A stretch of DNA of 64,000 nucleotides from NCBI GenBank assembly GCA_020740485.1, contig DYMN01000007.1, positions 1 through 64,000 on the forward strand, in the 5' to 3' direction. Source of the DNA: Polaribacter sp. (GTDB lineage Bacteria > Bacteroidota > Bacteroidia > Flavobacteriales > Flavobacteriaceae). Below, in pieces: positions 38,922-55,240 of this stretch. Every line of letters begins with the position of its first letter. Position 1 is the first letter of the stretch. A model generated the notes under the pieces. That model saw only the letters and a program-made list of their open reading frames with translations. It searched no databases and was not told the origin of the DNA. Both the position numbers and the translations under genes were made by a program.

Positions 38922-39033
38922 GGTTATTGATTGTTAGGTTATTGATTATTAGGTTAATTAGGTTAATTAGGTTGTTGAGTTAATTAGGTTAATTAGGTTA
39001 TTGAGTTAATTAGGTTATTAGGTTATTGATTGT
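38922..39033. repeat. Nonamer AGGTTAATT tandem array upstream of the permease gene
   Basis: About 110 bases built from AGGTTAATT, AGGTTATTGATT and related 8-, 9- and 17-bp units, on the plus strand. It starts 8 bases before the minus-strand start codon at 38914. In gene orientation the leader reads as repeated AATTAACCT/CAATAACCT. Confidence 0.8.
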
Positions 39034-44185: not shown

Positions 44186-44800
44186 TCAAATCAACTCATA
44201 TTTTGAAGCCAATCGCACCAAATCTGCTGTATTTTTAGCTTCCAACTTAACAATTAAATTTTTGCGGTGCGTATCGACTGTGCTGGCACTTACAAATAAT
44301 TTTTCTGCAATTTCGGAATTGGTCATGCCTAGTGCGATTAATTCCAGCACTTCTTTTTCTCGACGTGTTATGGCAGGATAATTTTGGGTTTTTTGCTCTA
44401 ACAAATCTTCTACTTCTTCACTGAAATATTTCCCCCCCTTATTTACCAGATGAATAGCATCAATAATTTCTTCTTTGGTTGCGTTTTTTAACAAATAGCC
44501 CGAAGCTCCGTTTTCTATCATTTTTTCAATGAAACTCAATTGATTGAAGGTGCTCAATCCTATTATTTTGACATTAGGAAAAATACTTTTTACTTCCAAA
44601 CACAAATCCACACCACTTTGGTTCGGTAAATTAATATCCATCAAAATAACATCGGGAACTTGGTTTTGCAAAAATGCTAATGCTGAGGATGCATTCATGG
44701 CATGACCCATCCATTCGATGTTTTTTTCAAATTGCAATAAGGTTCGCAATCCTTCAATCACCATATAATGATCATCTACTATGAATAGTTTTGTGGGCAT
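44186..44800 (-). CDS. LuxR/NarL-family response regulator
   Basis: 204 residues: receiver domain with D10-D11-type acidic pocket (FIVDDHYM), phosphorylation Asp55 in VILMDINLPNQSG, T/S and K at standard places, and a C-terminal LuxR helix-turn-helix LTRREKEVLELIALGMTNSE in 138-185. It acts as a transcription factor and pairs with the sensor kinase upstream (44931). An AATGTGCT-type octamer array and a hairpin repeat lie in the 130-base gap between the two. Confidence 0.93.
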   Translation of the reverse strand: MPTKLFIVDDHYMVIEGLRTLLQFEKNIEWMGHAMNASSALAFLQNQVPDVILMDINLPNQSGVDLCLEVKSIFPNVKIIGLSTFNQLSFIEKMIENGASGYLLKNATKEEIIDAIHLVNKGGKYFSEEVEDLLEQKTQNYPAITRREKEVLELIALGMTNSEIAEKLFVSASTVDTHRKNLIVKLEAKNTADLVRLASKYELI

Positions 44801-44804
44801 TTTT

Positions 44805-44864
44805 TAATGTGTTAATGTGCTAATGTGACAATGTGACAATGTGCTAATGTGACAATGTGCTAAT
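44805..44864. repeat. Octamer tandem array (7 units) before the response regulator gene
   Basis: TAATGTGT, TAATGTGC, TAATGTGA, CAATGTGA, CAATGTGC, TAATGTGA, CAATGTGC plus TAAT, in register on the plus strand, from 5 bases before the minus-strand start codon at 44800. In gene orientation it is GCACATTA-type, the same family as at 52403-52474 and 53709-53755. Confidence 0.85.
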
Positions 44865-44902
44865 CCCGCTCACGCCGATGCGTGATTTTCAATTTACGGG
44901 AT
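44863..44902. repeat. Nested hairpin between response regulator and sensor kinase
   Basis: ATCCCG (44863-44868) pairs with CGGGAT (44897-44902), enclosing CACGC-CGAT-GCGTG (44871-44884). TTCGTTTCACTACGAT follows. It looks like an interspersed palindromic element rather than a terminator, since no T-run follows on either strand. Confidence 0.5.
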
Positions 44903-44930
44903 CTTCGTTTCACTACGATATGCAAATTTA

Positions 44931-46943
44931 CTAATTTACTAATTTAATTTCGATTAATACCGATGTTCCTTCGTCTTTTTTGGAATGTATATCAATGTTT
45001 CCTTTGAGAAAATCGACTCGATTCTGAATATTACTCCAACCTATTCCTTTGGCTGATTGAAGCAAATCGGTTTCAAATCCTTTGCCGTTATCTTCAACTG
45101 TAATACTCAGTTTATTATCTGCAATACTCAATTGAACCAAAGTTTCTGTGGCTCCCGAATGTTTCAAAGCATTGTTAATCAATTCTTGCACAATGCGATA
45201 AACTGTAATGGATTTACTTTGTTCTAAGGGTTGGTTGTCCAATCCGTAGGATTGGTAGATTACTTTCATTCCACTGCTTTGGTTCATATCAGAACAAAAA
45301 TCGTTTAATGCCGTATCTAAACCGAATTTTACCAATGCTTCCGGCATCATATTGTGCGCCACGCGTCGCATTTCCTTGATACTGCTGTCTAACATATCCA
45401 AACTTCTTTCAAAAGCCGTTGCATTGTCCGGTGTCATAATGAGATTTCCTTTCATGTTGTGTAAAGAGTATTTAATTCCCGAAAGCATACCACCCAAACC
45501 ATCGTGTAAGTCTTTTGCAAGACGTGAACGTTCTTGCTCTTCCCCTTTGATGACGGAGGCGGTGGCTAATAATTGCTTATCGGTTTCTAATTGTTTGATT
45601 TTCTGATTTTGGTTGATTTGTTTGAGTCTATGATATCTAAAATATAATAAACCGGTTATTAATAATCCAATTATGGTTAACAATAAAACAGTAATCAAAA
45701 CTCTTCTTTTTCCCAATTTTTCCTTTTGTTGTAAAATTTGTTTTTCTTTTTTCTCCGACTGATATTTGGCTTCTAATTCAGAAAAAAGTTGTGATTGCTC
45801 ACTCTTTAAAATCGTATCGTTTACAACAGAATACAATTCTAAAAATTTATATGCCTCCTTATAGTTTCCGGTTTTGGAATAATACTGATGCAAAACATTA
45901 TAGAAGTTTCTTTTTTCAGTTGGATCATCGACATTTGAATAATAAGATTTACAAGCATCTATATATTTAGCGGCTTCTGAAAGTTTATTTTCTTTTATCG
46001 CAATTTTAGCTAAAAGTAAATTTGAATTTGCAATGCCTTCAGTACTTTTAATACGCATTGATGTCATCAAACTTTTTTTGGCAAAAATGTAAGATGAGTC
46101 TATTTTATTTAAATCAAAATATTCTTGTGCAATATTGTTATAATATCCTTGAATATGGGATTCAGGGACTTCACTTTTTTCCAATTCAGGAAGATATAAA
46201 AGTCTTATTCTAAGTGCTTTTTCCGTTTGTCCGTTTTCGTAGTAATTATCAGCTTTTTGTTGCGTATAAAAAGCCGTAATGGTCTTATTTTTATAGAAAT
46301 TTGATATATTCAACGCTTTATCAATATATTCATCTGCTTTGGGTAAATTCTTCAAGGTGCTAAATACAGCACTCATATTGTAATATAAATCAGATTTTTT
46401 CTTATCTAATATTCTCTTTGTCAAATTTTTATCTTTGAAAATTTCAGGATTATCAAAAATGGCTTGTGTTTTAAGGTAATAAACCACACAACTATCATAT
46501 TGCCCTTTCCAGTATTTTACATTTCCAATATTAAAATACGAACCTGACATAAGATACAAGTAATTTTCCGTTTTTGCAATTTCCAGCGATTTTTTATAAT
46601 TATATTCCGTTTTATCCATTTGATTGAAAAAGCTATGCCACAAACCTAACATTCTGTAACTATTGGATATTGCATAATTATTCTTTAATGCGATGCTTTT
46701 CTCTAATGCTTCATCTAATAATTTTTTTGACAAGGCACTGTCTTTTTCAATAATGTCATATCCTAAATGGCTCAATTTTCTTACTTGGGTAGTATCTATA
46801 GATGAAGAACGTATTTGAGTAACTTTTTTATGAAGTTCGCCGCTTTCCGATTGCTGTGCCGATAGCGAAAAAAAGCAAAGAAATATCAATAAGTTAAATG
46901 CTAATAATTTTTTATTATATAAGGTGTATTTATTTTTAATCAT
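44931..46943 (-). CDS. TPR-containing sensor histidine kinase (HisKA_3)
   Basis: 670 residues. A signal/membrane segment (LLAFNLLIFLCFFSLSAQ), periplasmic tetratricopeptide repeats (about 80-370), one transmembrane helix (414-434), a coiled coil, and a HisKA_3 dimerisation domain with the phospho-acceptor H480 in ERSRLAKDLHDGLGGM. The ATPase lobe has NALKHSGATE and VEDNGKGF. This is the Bacteroidetes type that senses an unknown periplasmic or surface signal and phosphorylates the LuxR regulator encoded downstream. Divergent to it lies a secreted-protein cluster, which may be its regulon. Confidence 0.93.
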   Translation of the reverse strand: MIKNKYTLYNKKLLAFNLLIFLCFFSLSAQQSESGELHKKVTQIRSSSIDTTQVRKLSHLGYDIIEKDSALSKKLLDEALEKSIALKNNYAISNSYRMLGLWHSFFNQMDKTEYNYKKSLEIAKTENYLYLMSGSYFNIGNVKYWKGQYDSCVVYYLKTQAIFDNPEIFKDKNLTKRILDKKKSDLYYNMSAVFSTLKNLPKADEYIDKALNISNFYKNKTITAFYTQQKADNYYENGQTEKALRIRLLYLPELEKSEVPESHIQGYYNNIAQEYFDLNKIDSSYIFAKKSLMTSMRIKSTEGIANSNLLLAKIAIKENKLSEAAKYIDACKSYYSNVDDPTEKRNFYNVLHQYYSKTGNYKEAYKFLELYSVVNDTILKSEQSQLFSELEAKYQSEKKEKQILQQKEKLGKRRVLITVLLLTIIGLLITGLLYFRYHRLKQINQNQKIKQLETDKQLLATASVIKGEEQERSRLAKDLHDGLGGMLSGIKYSLHNMKGNLIMTPDNATAFERSLDMLDSSIKEMRRVAHNMMPEALVKFGLDTALNDFCSDMNQSSGMKVIYQSYGLDNQPLEQSKSITVYRIVQELINNALKHSGATETLVQLSIADNKLSITVEDNGKGFETDLLQSAKGIGWSNIQNRVDFLKGNIDIHSKKDEGTSVLIEIKLVN

Positions 46944-48990: not shown

Positions 48991-49959
48991 ATGAATAATC
49001 AAATTTTAAAAAACTTATTAATTATATCAATGCTAATGCTAGTAATTGCTTCATGTCAAAAAGATGAAGCTATTAATAAAACAACTTCTCAAAATAATTT
49101 TGAAGGACCTTTTGAACAAAATATCAGTTTCCATTTTGACACAACTACTTTTAATGATGGTTGGATCAGCAAAGTGAAAGAAGATTGGGTCGAAGTTATT
49201 AAAGGTAACATTACAGTGCTGCTTCATTACAAAATATACAATATGCAGTCCCAAGACATTGATCAAATAATAAATACCGCATGGAATGGTATTGTTGCCC
49301 CTAGATACAGTTCTTTGTCTAACTACAGAACATCTTATATTTCAACATATAATAGATCCTATTTAGGTATGGGTTCTGTTGTTGATAATGCTTCTGGTCA
49401 GCAAAAATTTGTTTTATTATTTAGAAGAGGAGCTGGCTGGATTGAAGTTATTTGCCCAAACAAAAATACCTTTATGAACCAATTTCAGTTTGATCCGGAA
49501 ACAATTCAGTGGAATTCAAATGAAGACTTAGTAGATAGTGTAGCTGATTTAGCTAATTATAACAAATTTGCGATAGATGGTTCAGACCTAAACAATGTAG
49601 GTAAATGGTCAACTAATTATTCAAACAATACCTTTTACACCAACTATTATACCGGTGCTTATGAAGGGATGAGCACTTTTACAACCTCTCAATGGTTCAT
49701 TTTTGGAAAAAACCGTGCATATCATTGGGAAATTGTTAGTACAAATACAAGTGGAGGTCAGACAAGCGTGGGTTCTGCAAATAGTGATGGCATCTATTCA
49801 GTTCCAAATAATTGGCAAATACAATGTTCAAATATAGAAAACAATCCAAAACTATATGATGCCTACTACACAGCTACAAAAGGCGGAAGACTGCTTTGGC
49901 TTAATGATGCAGTATATCCGGGCAATGGAACCTTCACTGGTTTTGCAGTGAGTAATTAA
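48991..49959 (+). CDS. Lipoprotein with a paralogous 290-residue domain of unknown function
   Basis: 322 residues from ATG 48991 (MNNQILKNLLIISMLMLVIASC, lipid Cys at 22). The open frame begins at TTG 48931 but that part covers the hairpin and is not likely translated. The mature part matches the C-terminal half of the 53762 protein: FNDGWISKVKEDWVEV / FDDGWTSTVQEDWVEV, VAPRYSSLSNYRTSY / VAPRYTNLTNFKTAY, FRRGAGWIEV / FRRSAGWIEI, LWLNDAVYPGNGTFTGF / LWMNDAEHQGNGTFDGF. The family is unknown to me. Probably an outer-membrane surface lipoprotein within the two-component cluster. Confidence 0.78.
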   Translation: MNNQILKNLLIISMLMLVIASCQKDEAINKTTSQNNFEGPFEQNISFHFDTTTFNDGWISKVKEDWVEVIKGNITVLLHYKIYNMQSQDIDQIINTAWNGIVAPRYSSLSNYRTSYISTYNRSYLGMGSVVDNASGQQKFVLLFRRGAGWIEVICPNKNTFMNQFQFDPETIQWNSNEDLVDSVADLANYNKFAIDGSDLNNVGKWSTNYSNNTFYTNYYTGAYEGMSTFTTSQWFIFGKNRAYHWEIVSTNTSGGQTSVGSANSDGIYSVPNNWQIQCSNIENNPKLYDAYYTATKGGRLLWLNDAVYPGNGTFTGFAVSN

Positions 49960-50250
49960 AACAAAACGATTCTTTGGAGAAAAGGATTGAAGTGTTGGAA
50001 AGGAAATAAATTATTAATGTGCCAATGCGATGCACTGAGCTTGTCGAAGTGTGGTAATGTGCCAATGTGTTAATGTGCTAAAGCGATGCACTGAGCGAAG
50101 TCGAAGTGTGGTAATGTGTAACGCTAAGTACTGACTTATTCTTAATTGAAAATTATTTATATATGTTAAATAATCACATATTAATAATTGACATATAATG
50201 TATTACAATTAAAAAAATATTTTTTATTGAATCTATAAAATCAACATCCT
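49960..50250. repeat. Composite intergenic repeat block
   Basis: About 50016-50118 holds two copies of a module: TAATGTGCCAATG-type octamers followed by GCGATGCACTGAGC(TTG or GAAG)TCGAAGTGTGG. The dyad copies CACTGAGCTTGTCGAAGTG (50033-50051) and CACTGAGCGAAGTCGAAGTG (50089-50108) are members of the interspersed family. The remaining part to 50250 is AT-rich with no evident signal. Confidence 0.7.
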
Positions 50251-52245: not shown

Positions 52246-52264
52246 AAAGTTAATAGTTTGTAAA

Positions 52265-52306
52265 GGCAATAGGCATTAGGCATTAGGCAATAGGCAATAG
52301 GTATTA
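52265..52306. repeat. Heptamer tandem array GGCAATA/GGCATTA (6 units)
   Basis: Six 7-bp units in register (GGCAATA, GGCATTA, GGCATTA, GGCAATA, GGCAATA, GGTATTA), 20 bases after the stop of the TPR protein. A related GGCAATAGGTAATTGGCATTAGGCAATA-type second block starts near 52341 (four units). Similar GGCAATAGGCA occurs at 53661. Confidence 0.8.
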
Positions 52307-52402
52307 GAAAGTAAAATTATAAAGTTTGTAAAGTTTATAAAGGCAATAGGTAATTGGCATTAGGCAATAGAAAGTAAAACATTTATAGAATTTGTAAAGA
52401 TT

Positions 52403-52474
52403 AACACATAAGCAAATTAGCACATTAACACATTAGCACATTAGTACATTAGCACATTAGCAAATTAACACATT
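52403..52474. repeat. Octamer tandem array AGCACATT (9 units) before a secreted gene
   Basis: Nine contiguous 8-bp units (AACACATA, AGCAAATT, AGCACATT, AACACATT, AGCACATT, AGTACATT, AGCACATT, AGCAAATT, AACACATT), ending 8 bases before ATG 52483. The only bases between are CTTTAAAA. Confidence 0.9.
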
Positions 52475-52482
52475 CTTTAAAA

Positions 52483-53643
52483 ATGAAACATCTTATTTTA
52501 ATCATCGCATTTGTATCTGTAAGTGATATGCAGGCGCAAAAAAATTCTTATGTTGACGAAGTAATCGGTTGGAAAACAGTGTACAATTTTACATCGGCCA
52601 CAAAGTCGCAACAAGTTGGAGACAAAACCTATTCGGCTAGTCAAATAACCCTAGCAGGCGAAATAGCCAATTGGATGCAGATGAGTTATATGCCAAAAGG
52701 GACTTTAGGTGATGTTAAAAAAACGGTTTTACCTAAAGCAGGTTTGTACAATGCCTACGTTAAAGCATTACCACATGCTTATGGGGCTGTGGTTTATTCT
52801 TATGTTTTTCTAAAAAAAGATGCTCAAAACAAATGGATTAATGAAACTTCGCATGCCAATGTATGGCGCATTATGGCCAATGAAGTTCCCAATGCCGACT
52901 ATTACGGAATCCCTTTTCTATCTTCAGATGCTACTTTTTATTTTACCATTCCTCAATCGGAGGAAACACGTTGGGATCATTTGCAAGAAAACACTAACCA
53001 ACATCCTGTTATCAAAAAATACTACCATAAAACTTTACCCGATTTTGGTGGTGCCAGCCATGCCAAACTCATTATCATTAGTAAAAATAATGTTTTTCCT
53101 TTCCACCATTTGACCATAGGTGAAGTATTAAATTTAATTGAAACATCTATAAACAATTGGTTTGAAGTTGAACAAAAAAGTATAGCCGAACGCAGACAGT
53201 ATCAGGCAGTTAAAGATTCGTATAAAGATTATGAACATGATATAAATAGAGCCAAAGAAAAAGTTACTTCAGCCAAATTGTTTTTGAATGAATTGAAAAC
53301 CAAATATAAAAACAAGACCAGCGAACCGGCATATCTAAGAAATGGTGAATTTGATGTAATCGATTTTGTCATCCGTTATGATATATTCTCGGGAAATGAA
53401 ACCACAAATCTCAATAAAAATTATCCCGTTTATACCATCAAACCGGAAATTCTATCCCAATGCAAAACCGATCAACCGCAATGGTTCAGCATCATGTGGT
53501 ACGGTGCAAGTATAGATGAACCCGCTTACAGGCATTTAAATGAATCAATTCTCAATAATTTTAATTTTGATTATTTGTACCAATACTTTTTCGACTCTAC
53601 TAAAATTGGCACTCAAAAATATCAACCTTTGAAAACTCCTTGA
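52483..53643 (+). CDS. Secreted protein of unknown function (386 aa)
   Basis: 386 residues with signal peptide MKHLILIIAFVSVSDMQAQ. I recognise no domain. Features: aromatic-rich N-terminal half, VVYSYVFLKKDAQNKWI, LIIISKNNVFPFHHLTIGEVLNLIE in parts, and a central charged helix (about 220-270). The protein has no C-terminal sorting signal, so a periplasmic or surface location is open. Nine octamers stand immediately before its start codon. It sits between the TPR protein and the two-domain protein, same strand. Confidence 0.7.
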   Translation: MKHLILIIAFVSVSDMQAQKNSYVDEVIGWKTVYNFTSATKSQQVGDKTYSASQITLAGEIANWMQMSYMPKGTLGDVKKTVLPKAGLYNAYVKALPHAYGAVVYSYVFLKKDAQNKWINETSHANVWRIMANEVPNADYYGIPFLSSDATFYFTIPQSEETRWDHLQENTNQHPVIKKYYHKTLPDFGGASHAKLIIISKNNVFPFHHLTIGEVLNLIETSINNWFEVEQKSIAERRQYQAVKDSYKDYEHDINRAKEKVTSAKLFLNELKTKYKNKTSEPAYLRNGEFDVIDFVIRYDIFSGNETTNLNKNYPVYTIKPEILSQCKTDQPQWFSIMWYGASIDEPAYRHLNESILNNFNFDYLYQYFFDSTKIGTQKYQPLKTP

Positions 53644-53708
53644 AGTTATTATGATTATAAAGGCAATAGGCAGTTATACAGTTATTAAGATGAACACATT
53701 TCTAAATT

Positions 53709-53755
53709 GGCACATTGGCACATTAACACATTGGCACATTAAAAATTAGCACATT
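53709..53755. repeat. Octamer array GGCACATT/AGCACATT before the two-domain gene
   Basis: GGCACATT, GGCACATT, AACACATT, GGCACATT, (AAAAATT), AGCACATT, then six A and ATG 53762. Same family and orientation as the array before 52483. A GGCAATA heptamer block lies further upstream near 53661. Confidence 0.88.
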
Positions 53756-53761
53756 AAAAAA

Positions 53762-55240
53762 ATGAAACATTCTTTTTTAACCTTAGCATTTTACCTCATG
53801 ATTGTCCACGTTTTTGGGCAAACCGAAACCTTTGACATCGTTACTTATAAAGCACCCAAAGGTTGGACGAAAGAAACTAAAAACAACTTGGTGGCTTTCT
53901 CCAAAATTGACGGTAGCAGTTGGAGTCAAATTATTGTGTATAAAAACACGATTTCCAAAGGCAGTATTCAAAAAGATTTCGATAGCGAATGGCAGGAGTT
54001 AGTAGTAAAAAACTATACTAGCATCTCCAAACCCGAAATAGAAAAACCTGAAACAGCCGAAGGTTGGACCGTGATGAGCGGTTCGGGTTTATGGAAATAT
54101 GAAGGAAGCAATGTCGCAACCATTCTCACCACTTATACCGGCTATAATGCATGTGTGAGCATAGTGTGCAATGCTACTGCAATGCCGTATCTTGAAAACT
54201 ACAAAGATTTTATCGGAACTGTGGAACTATACAACGGTCAAAATAATTCGGAAAAAGTCGTTCCAAACATTCATACCGATAATGCTTCTAATCAAAACAA
54301 TACTTCACAAAACAACACAAACCCAAGCAATCCAAAGAAAGACAATTACGCTTTCAATACCACCAATTTTGACGACGGTTGGACTTCAACCGTACAAGAA
54401 GATTGGGTAGAGGTAGCCAAAAGCAATATCAAAGTGTTGTTGCATTATCCCAAAGAAGGTACTATCTTTCCGGCTGATCCCGAACAATTGACCGGTACTG
54501 CATGGAATATCTTGGTTGCACCGCGCTACACTAATCTCACGAATTTTAAAACCGCTTATGTAGAAATGTATAACCGTCCCTATTTTGGGATGGGTTATGC
54601 CAATGAAAACAGCTCAGGGAAAAAAGTATTTGTCGTATTGTTTCGCCGAAGTGCAGGATGGATAGAAATTGTTTCACCCGATGCCAATACCTTTACTCAA
54701 GAATTTGGTTTCAACCCAGAGACCATACATTGGGGTAAAATAAGTGATTACATGGGTGGTTATGTGGTGGATAACGCACAAGGTGTAACAGTGAAAGCCG
54801 ACGAACCGGAAGTTTATAACAAATTGGACAACATGACAAGCAGAAACAAGTTTGCCGTGGCTGCTTCAGACTTGGATAACACAGGACAATGGGATAATCG
54901 TTATAGTAGCAACACGTTTTATGCTAATTACTATACGGGAGATTATGCCGGCATGAGTACGTTTTCTTCTTCCAAATGGTTTGTGTTTAAACCCGGGCAA
55001 AAATACCATTGGGAATTAGTGATGGTAAATTCTTATGGAGGGCAAGGAACTGCCGCACAAACAAAAAGCGATGGAGCATTTAAATTGCTTAACAATTGGC
55101 AATTGCATTTTTCTAAGATTGATACAAGTCCCAAAACCTTTGATGTCTATTTTTCAGCGATTAAAGATGGTCGTGTGCTTTGGATGAATGATGCTGAGCA
55201 TCAGGGCAACGGTACCTTTGATGGATTTACAAAAAAGTAA
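53762..55240 (+). CDS. Two-domain secreted protein containing the paralogous unknown domain (492 aa)
   Basis: 492 residues with signal peptide MKHSFLTLAFYLMIVHVFGQ. Residues about 22-165 form a domain with YKAPKGWTKETKNNLVAFSK and IVYKNTISKGS, followed by an Asn/Ser/Gln-rich linker (about 175-200). The C-terminal 290 residues repeat the domain of the 48991 lipoprotein, with FDDGWTSTVQEDWVEV, FRRSAGWIEI and NNTF/NTFYANYYTGDYAGMSTF. This indicates domain duplication within the cluster. No lipid cysteine, so soluble periplasmic or secreted. The domain is not known to me. Confidence 0.75.
   Translation: MKHSFLTLAFYLMIVHVFGQTETFDIVTYKAPKGWTKETKNNLVAFSKIDGSSWSQIIVYKNTISKGSIQKDFDSEWQELVVKNYTSISKPEIEKPETAEGWTVMSGSGLWKYEGSNVATILTTYTGYNACVSIVCNATAMPYLENYKDFIGTVELYNGQNNSEKVVPNIHTDNASNQNNTSQNNTNPSNPKKDNYAFNTTNFDDGWTSTVQEDWVEVAKSNIKVLLHYPKEGTIFPADPEQLTGTAWNILVAPRYTNLTNFKTAYVEMYNRPYFGMGYANENSSGKKVFVVLFRRSAGWIEIVSPDANTFTQEFGFNPETIHWGKISDYMGGYVVDNAQGVTVKADEPEVYNKLDNMTSRNKFAVAASDLDNTGQWDNRYSSNTFYANYYTGDYAGMSTFSSSKWFVFKPGQKYHWELVMVNSYGGQGTAAQTKSDGAFKLLNNWQLHFSKIDTSPKTFDVYFSAIKDGRVLWMNDAEHQGNGTFDGFTKK

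Follow-up and report, generated by a model that had tools for sequence, protein, structure and literature searches.

What are the tandem octamers that end within a few bases of three start codons in this stretch of DNA, and do they act on the genes behind them? In the window, by which we mean the whole 64-kb stretch that was analyzed, an array of about nine octamers (52400 to 52474, plus strand) places its last CACATT 8 bases 5' of the ATG at 52483; a second array, of about seven units and one more (53690 to 53755, plus strand), ends in the same way 6 bases 5' of the ATG at 53762; and a third, of eight units (44801 to 44864, minus strand), reaches the response-regulator start codon at 44800, its last CACATT (array 44806 to 44864) ending 5 bases 5' of that ATG. 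These three start-edge arrays had been described in a sequence-only reading of this DNA, and all were present at those distances. That reading had also held that the repeats always run in the same sense, and it had offered slippage in the leader or recruitment of an RNA-binding protein as possible functions. However, the window holds a fourth array that had been missed (50011 to 50082, minus strand), which is broken by a REP-like element, lies between two plus-strand genes, is antisense to both, and faces a stop, namely that of the gene at 48991 to 49959 (plus strand).

The array unit is 8 bases long with the consensus ATTRRCAC, its gene-side end reads CACATTA-, and the array can also be written (ATTAGCAC)n. 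The pattern CACATTRRCACATT had 10 matches in the window, compared to a mean of 0.00 and a largest count of 0 over 100 dinucleotide shuffles. The window is part of a 2.18-Mb genome of 40 contigs (G000), where the same pattern had 34 exact matches and its reversal 0; when a 24-base version was used with up to three mismatches, 42 matches were found, and again 0 for the reversed pattern. Further repeats accompany the octamers. Modules made of a heptamer (AGGCAAT / GGCATTA) and AAAGTTTRT occupy 52264 to 52403 on the plus strand, 5' of the first array, and include a tandemly duplicated segment of about 63 bases. Such modules also stand 5' of the octamers at 53660 to 53690, within a 118-base intergenic region of heptamer and octamer repeats (53644 to 53761, plus strand), and comparable modules were seen 5' of the octamers at other genus loci, L069 and L062 among them. 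Elsewhere in the window, two minus-strand genes flank a further degenerate array (38922 to 39029), whose GGTTATTGAGTTAATTA-type units represent a separate repeat class of G000.

The gene behind the third array encodes a response regulator with a LuxR-type HTH (44186 to 44800, minus strand; Pfam PF00072 and PF00196), and a TPR histidine kinase is encoded at 44931 to 46943 on the same strand (PF07730 and PF02518). Those 3' of the first and second arrays (52483 to 53643 and 53762 to 55240, both plus strand) are of unknown family, with no Pfam match and with orthologues in two relatives, G002 and G003, and the called gene whose stop is faced by the antisense array had no Pfam match either. Of 20 array-adjoining proteins scanned against Pfam, 15 matched a family at E ≤0.001, some of these matches falling short of the Pfam cut-off, and 5 matched none.

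To place the arrays relative to their neighboring genes, we took arrays of at least four units and called the genes with a purpose-written codon-usage script. The genus set comprised 32 arrays from the window and 24 stretches of G000, G002, and G003, and the named set comprised 67 arrays out of 77 named loci that were picked up when 84,980 species were scanned for the pattern. We excluded arrays for which the nearest 800 bases on one side contained no called gene (7/39 genus, 31/99 named) and one further named array inside a gene; L108 and L134 (the same DNA as L068 and L065 of G002) and L095 (with a Burkholderiaceae title) were removed before counting, and the Polynucleobacter loci L105 and L130 were retained. 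The arrays were numerous per genome and intergenic; 0/39 genus arrays and 1/99 named arrays lay inside a called gene.

The CACATTA end was the gene-nearer end in 86 of the 99 arrays measured (25/32 genus, 61/67 named), and in 60/71 when one array was counted per locus. This end lay within 20 bases of the gene in 63/99 arrays, compared to 6/99 for the opposite end, and the polarity was seen under all four gene-caller settings (98/113, 86/99, 39/49, and 33/39). It was also seen in symmetric contexts, i.e., between two stops or two starts, where the CACATTA end was the nearer one in 28/31 named and 5/5 genus arrays, and in the convergent regions of the named set, where it lay at the nearer stop in 23/24 arrays. 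The edge that it faced was a start for 43 arrays and a stop for 56, and in same-direction gene contexts, 33 arrays were sense and 30 antisense, so that the preferences for start codons and for the sense strand expected from the sequence-only reading largely did not hold up; a sense-only leader signal is ruled out as a general rule by these counts. Placement before starts and in sense was thus a property of the three arrays first named and not of the arrays overall. Since the polarity is tied to gene edges and not to the direction of transcription, a leader signal is not the general explanation.

Start edges were looser than stop edges in the named set, with a median gap of 42 bases at start edges (same-direction context) and of -2.5 and -4 bases at stop edges. 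A stop codon stood in the array's own register at 21/38 named and 6/12 genus stop edges, where 1 in 8 is expected by chance, although part of this excess is to be expected because a gene entering an array terminates at the first in-frame TAA. Stop-edge arrays often provide the stop codon of the gene. The edge rule was not followed in G097, a genome of another genus in the same family, in which 5/5 arrays (loci L075 to L078, kept outside the 99-array counts) were remote from the gene pointed at, with 3' gaps of 74 to 1973. Three further ideas were considered and dropped. Avoidance of upstream ATGs as the sole cause of the orientation fails for the convergent regions of the named set. Frequent variants of the unit, GGCACATT and AGCAAATT among them, would break a chain of mini-ORFs (ATG-TGC-TAA). 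The promoter motif TAnnTTTG was about as frequent in the window as chance predicts (108 occurrences vs. 101 expected).

We then compared the window with its close relatives. Around the first two arrays, G002 and G000 share 94 to 95% identity in the flanking genes, and around the third, about 85%. The leader of the gene at 52483 carries 9 octamers in G000 and 3 at the same place in G002, which bears out, for this single genome pair, the expectation that unit number differs between relatives; the repeat region upstream is shorter in G002, and it is there that G000 carries its tandem duplication. The leader at 53762 has a REP-like hairpin inside the array in G002 that G000 is without, and the array at 44801 to 44864 is also found in G002, whose contig ends inside it. 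G003, which is about 74% identical, had no recognizable array at the three start-edge sites compared. At the 53762 junction, the gene calls give a 4-base overlap of the two genes in G003, and a separation of 118 bases in G000 and 184 in G002, where the spacer is largely made of heptamer and octamer repeats. Given the overlap in G003, the 53762 array may lie between cistrons instead of forming a promoter-proximal leader. The difference between the genomes may reflect a gain here or a loss in G003. No target-site duplication was seen at 53762 in the comparison with G003, in which the other two sites are too diverged.

These comparisons bear on two explanations in which the arrays would serve the gene behind them. 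Phase-variable control, in which slippage of the octamers between promoter and start would alter leader length and thereby expression, agrees with the change from 9 to 3 units, with the position of the arrays directly 5' of three starts in the window, and with a unit that is not a multiple of three. However, the arrays face stops at least as often as starts and lie antisense nearly as often as sense, the degeneracy of their units should slow slippage, and the one at 53762 may be no leader at all, so we regard such control as distinctly improbable. The sequence-only reading is thus upheld in that unit counts vary, but not in its view of the arrays as leaders, as they have no general preference for starts or for sense. 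The other explanation would make the repeat, read as AUUAGCAC in the leader, the binding site of an RNA-binding regulator of translation, by analogy with what has been suggested for the TAACTGA heptamers of Beggiatoaceae. The start-edge arrays do share their sense, with CACATTA- directly before the ATG, and a published precedent exists in the parts of PMC4679880 that we compared; yet 56 of the 99 arrays face stops, where the messenger would carry the complement, and we consider this idea less probable again. Either role is insufficient alone, because the arrays abut stops at least as tightly as starts.

We next turn to the architecture in which the arrays occur. All arrays on opposite strands less than 250 bases apart pointed outward, in 2/2 cases for the genus set, which both come from L072 of G003, 11/11 in the named set, and 24/24 in stretches of Bacteroides and Phocaeicola, and no inward-facing close pair was seen in any of these three sets. 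The 24 pairs came from 40 stretches of Bacteroides sp. 519, B. nordii, and Phocaeicola intestinalis; since these were often picked for showing pairs, the counts inform on the direction of pairs and not on their frequency, and two of the stretches coincide with L146 and L158 of the named set. Likewise, among the matches listed, opposite-strand matches within 250 bases were outward in 15/15 cases in Bacteroides sp. 519 and 5/5 in B. nordii. The complete element was best seen in Bacteroides, where it is an inverted repeat in which (TAATGTGC)n is followed by a short hairpin core that often contains GCGCAGC and then by (GCACATTA)n; it can take up all the space between two neighboring genes, and several copies fold into long hairpins. 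When arms were compared over 31 of the 40 stretches (L236 to L266), likeness was 0.885 within the same element vs. 0.853 between different elements (permutation p 0.0076), with an arm's own partner being its best match in only 5/24. Two elements of Bacteroides sp. 519, at L251:1540-1660 and L237:1500-1640, are long near-perfect hairpins between convergent genes, and the gene whose stop lies at the second of these, in L237, has a Pfam match to the Rho termination factor. At a Crocinitomicaceae locus (L107:1332-1823), a merged composite of 38 counted octamer units has CCCGAAGGGTCGGGA hairpins within it and ends at a start codon.

Terminal inverted repeats are a trait of MITEs, and close pairs do face outward, yet most arms in the window's genus are single, and hairpins there lie within same-direction arrays or adjoin them. 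Dispersed short intergenic hairpins, a trait of REP/BIME elements, are present both as the REP-like copies of G000 and as the Bacteroides hairpins. Two copies of the GCTCAGTGCATCGC family lie on the minus strand of the window (50027 to 50050 and 50083 to 50107), and a hairpin of a second REP-like family (GCGTGAGCGGG...) lies at 44865 to 44920 on the same strand, directly 5' of the octamer array at 44801 to 44864. This second family is also dispersed, e.g., at G000:C36:47621-47726, which is 87% identical over window positions 44839 to 44943. The REP-like motif has 14 exact copies in G000, and 13 of them, all but L316, lead straight into octamer-type units, though L321 is a weak case with one or two units only; the next gene edge was a start in 7/14 and a stop in 7/14. 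The search for a Y1/RAYT-type transposase (PF01797) gave no match in 5 of the 14 array-holding genomes, among them the genome richest in array matches, or in 2 of the 4 genus genomes, one of which is G002, several of the genomes in either count being drafts. The sole PF01797 match in G000 is a Y1 transposase-like frame with one internal stop (G000:C28:137860-138177). Because this family was not consistently found, a RAYT/Y1 transposase is unsupported as the general mobilizer.

The pattern scan of 84,980 species matched at least 120 stretches. Among the matches listed, 77 of 80 carried titles that we take to be those of Bacteroidota, and the non-Bacteroidota among them were one Burkholderiaceae and two Polynucleobacter loci, all from metagenome bins. 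An exact triple array was present in 3/4 genus, 3/299 family, and 3/198 sampled phylum genomes, with the window's own genome counted each time, and in 2/6 genomes of the genus of G097. The spread across Bacteroidota is therefore patchy. Across 14 genomes chosen among the matches, exact pair matches summed to 719, vs. 1 for the reversed control. A 22-base triple pattern found only 7 stretches in 2.9 million viral contigs, which rules against a phage origin; six viral arrays had at least four units, and flanking genes were measurable for only two of them.

The account that we hold to be probable, if narrowly so, is that the arrays are the arms of a dispersed, non-coding, REP/STRR-like intergenic repeat element of Bacteroidota. 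We observed edge polarity, outward pairs, differences in units and inserts, one junction without intergenic DNA in a relative, and spread through the phylum; on this account, the octamer arms would extend outward from a hairpin core until coding sequence sets the limit, and the CACATTA end would therefore meet whichever gene edge is there, start or stop. The element would spread as tolerated or selfish DNA, and its placement would reflect what coding sequence and promoters permit. Any effects on leaders or messenger ends would be secondary, a by-product, and slippage is the likely cause of the differences in unit number. Several observations sit less easily with a repeat element. No mobilizing enzyme has been tied to it, the arms of the genus are mostly single with hairpins inside same-direction arrays, and all five arrays of G097 lie away from the gene that they point at. 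The enrichment of arrays in convergent regions of the named set would also fit a role at messenger 3' ends, and a repeat element gives no account of why one unit is common to the phylum.

A role at messenger ends is part of a different proposal, in which the arrays would be kept as gene insulators that work as an exit boundary or one-way valve, the strand leaving the gene reading (TAATGTGC)n. RNA exiting the 3' end, or antisense RNA crossing the start, would then carry UAAUGUGC repeats that bring about termination, processing, or stabilization, while transcription into the gene would pass the permissive strand. The polarity is indeed alike at starts and stops, long hairpins lie between convergent Bacteroides genes, and the named set showed convergent enrichment (21/56 regions with an array vs. 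17/149 without), together with a depletion of divergent regions (overall p 4.8e-05). However, there was no convergent enrichment in the genus (2/35 with an array vs. 12/86 without, p 0.34) and the Bacteroides stretches were not clearly shifted (7/28 vs. 2/18, p 0.23), the unit is without a terminator-like U tract, and an exact triple in 3/198 phylum and 3/299 family genomes is patchy for a general boundary signal. We therefore think a valve of this kind unlikely, although it is the least unlikely of the alternatives. Its broader form, a gene-edge signal of Bacteroidota in which a phylum-wide factor would read the (TAATGTGC)n-exiting arrays at starts and stops as a one-way boundary, allowing entry and ending or trimming exit, we place just behind phase-variable control and ahead of RNA binding in probability. 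Finally, the arrays might have grown directionally, a templated polymerase adding octamers in telomere-like fashion to DNA ends leaving the gene, which would then be sealed. As a rule, the T/G-richer TAATGTGC is on the strand whose 3' end points out of the gene, and one unit recurs phylum-wide among the matches listed; both would suit such growth. Conversely, the units are degenerate, hairpins are embedded in the arrays, and seeding at gene edges would be left unexplained. This is the least probable of all the explanations weighed here, and we return to the intergenic repeat element as the preferred one.

A repeat that honors the limits of genes whichever way they run is unexpected, and it implies one of two things, a boundary signal or an intergenic element that is unusual in filling the space up to gene edges. 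Because the arrays are not confined to metagenome bins but are also present in cultured, named Bacteroidota, genomes already available and RNA 3'-end data allow a test of their polarity. The case also carries a caution, that repeats adjoining start codons should not be taken for leader regulators until the stop side has been inspected. We found no description of the octamer or of its edge rule in the literature searched, which covered few subscription journals, and a search with the exact repeat strings returned only an unrelated match.

How, then, do the arrays compare with systems already known? Contingency loci with simple repeats in promoters or leaders consist of near-exact repeats at a few genes. 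Like them, the octamers form a non-triplet tandem repeat near a start that varies in unit number; unlike them, the arrays are many, degenerate, and found at starts and stops. The cyanobacterial STRR sequences are tandem heptanucleotide repeats in intergenic regions, and the octamers resemble these in forming short intergenic tandem arrays but differ in unit and in phylum; we know of no edge polarity for STRR repeats. The repeat unit of BrickBuilt is longer than the octamer. This MITE of Porphyromonas gingivalis, named in PMC5771137 and set beside the octamers by description only, is likewise an intergenic inverted-repeat element of Bacteroidota, with an internal minisatellite. REP/BIME elements of the GTAG and CGTC families are, in the parts of PMC3733652 compared, intergenic palindromes near genes, and the ends of GTAG REPs often give flanking ORFs a stop codon, a supply that the octamers share; the octamer element differs in consisting mostly of degenerate octamer arms and in being without a consistent Y1 transposase. 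Similar in placement to the start-edge arrays are the TAACTGA heptamers, which lie a few bases 5' of starts in Beggiatoaceae, where a translational role was favored, and which also occur, patchily, as sets in cyanobacteria and five Bacteroidetes (MacGregor 2015, PMC4679880, here and below as far as the parts compared). Between two Cyanothece strains, their indels are mostly in 7-base steps; some sets are reversed, one lies directly after a stop codon, and several lie between stop codons in Microcystis (PMC4679880). The start/stop edge rule, the cores, and the outward inverted pairs are absent from those parts of PMC4679880. Both kinds of repeat are short intergenic direct repeats with many sets in some genomes, near starts and patchy in distribution, whereas the heptamer has another sequence and was counted as exact repeats, and the unit here is the degenerate, 8-base ATTRRCAC. 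Set beside these systems, the arrays look like a little-described intergenic repeat and not like a switch for three genes.
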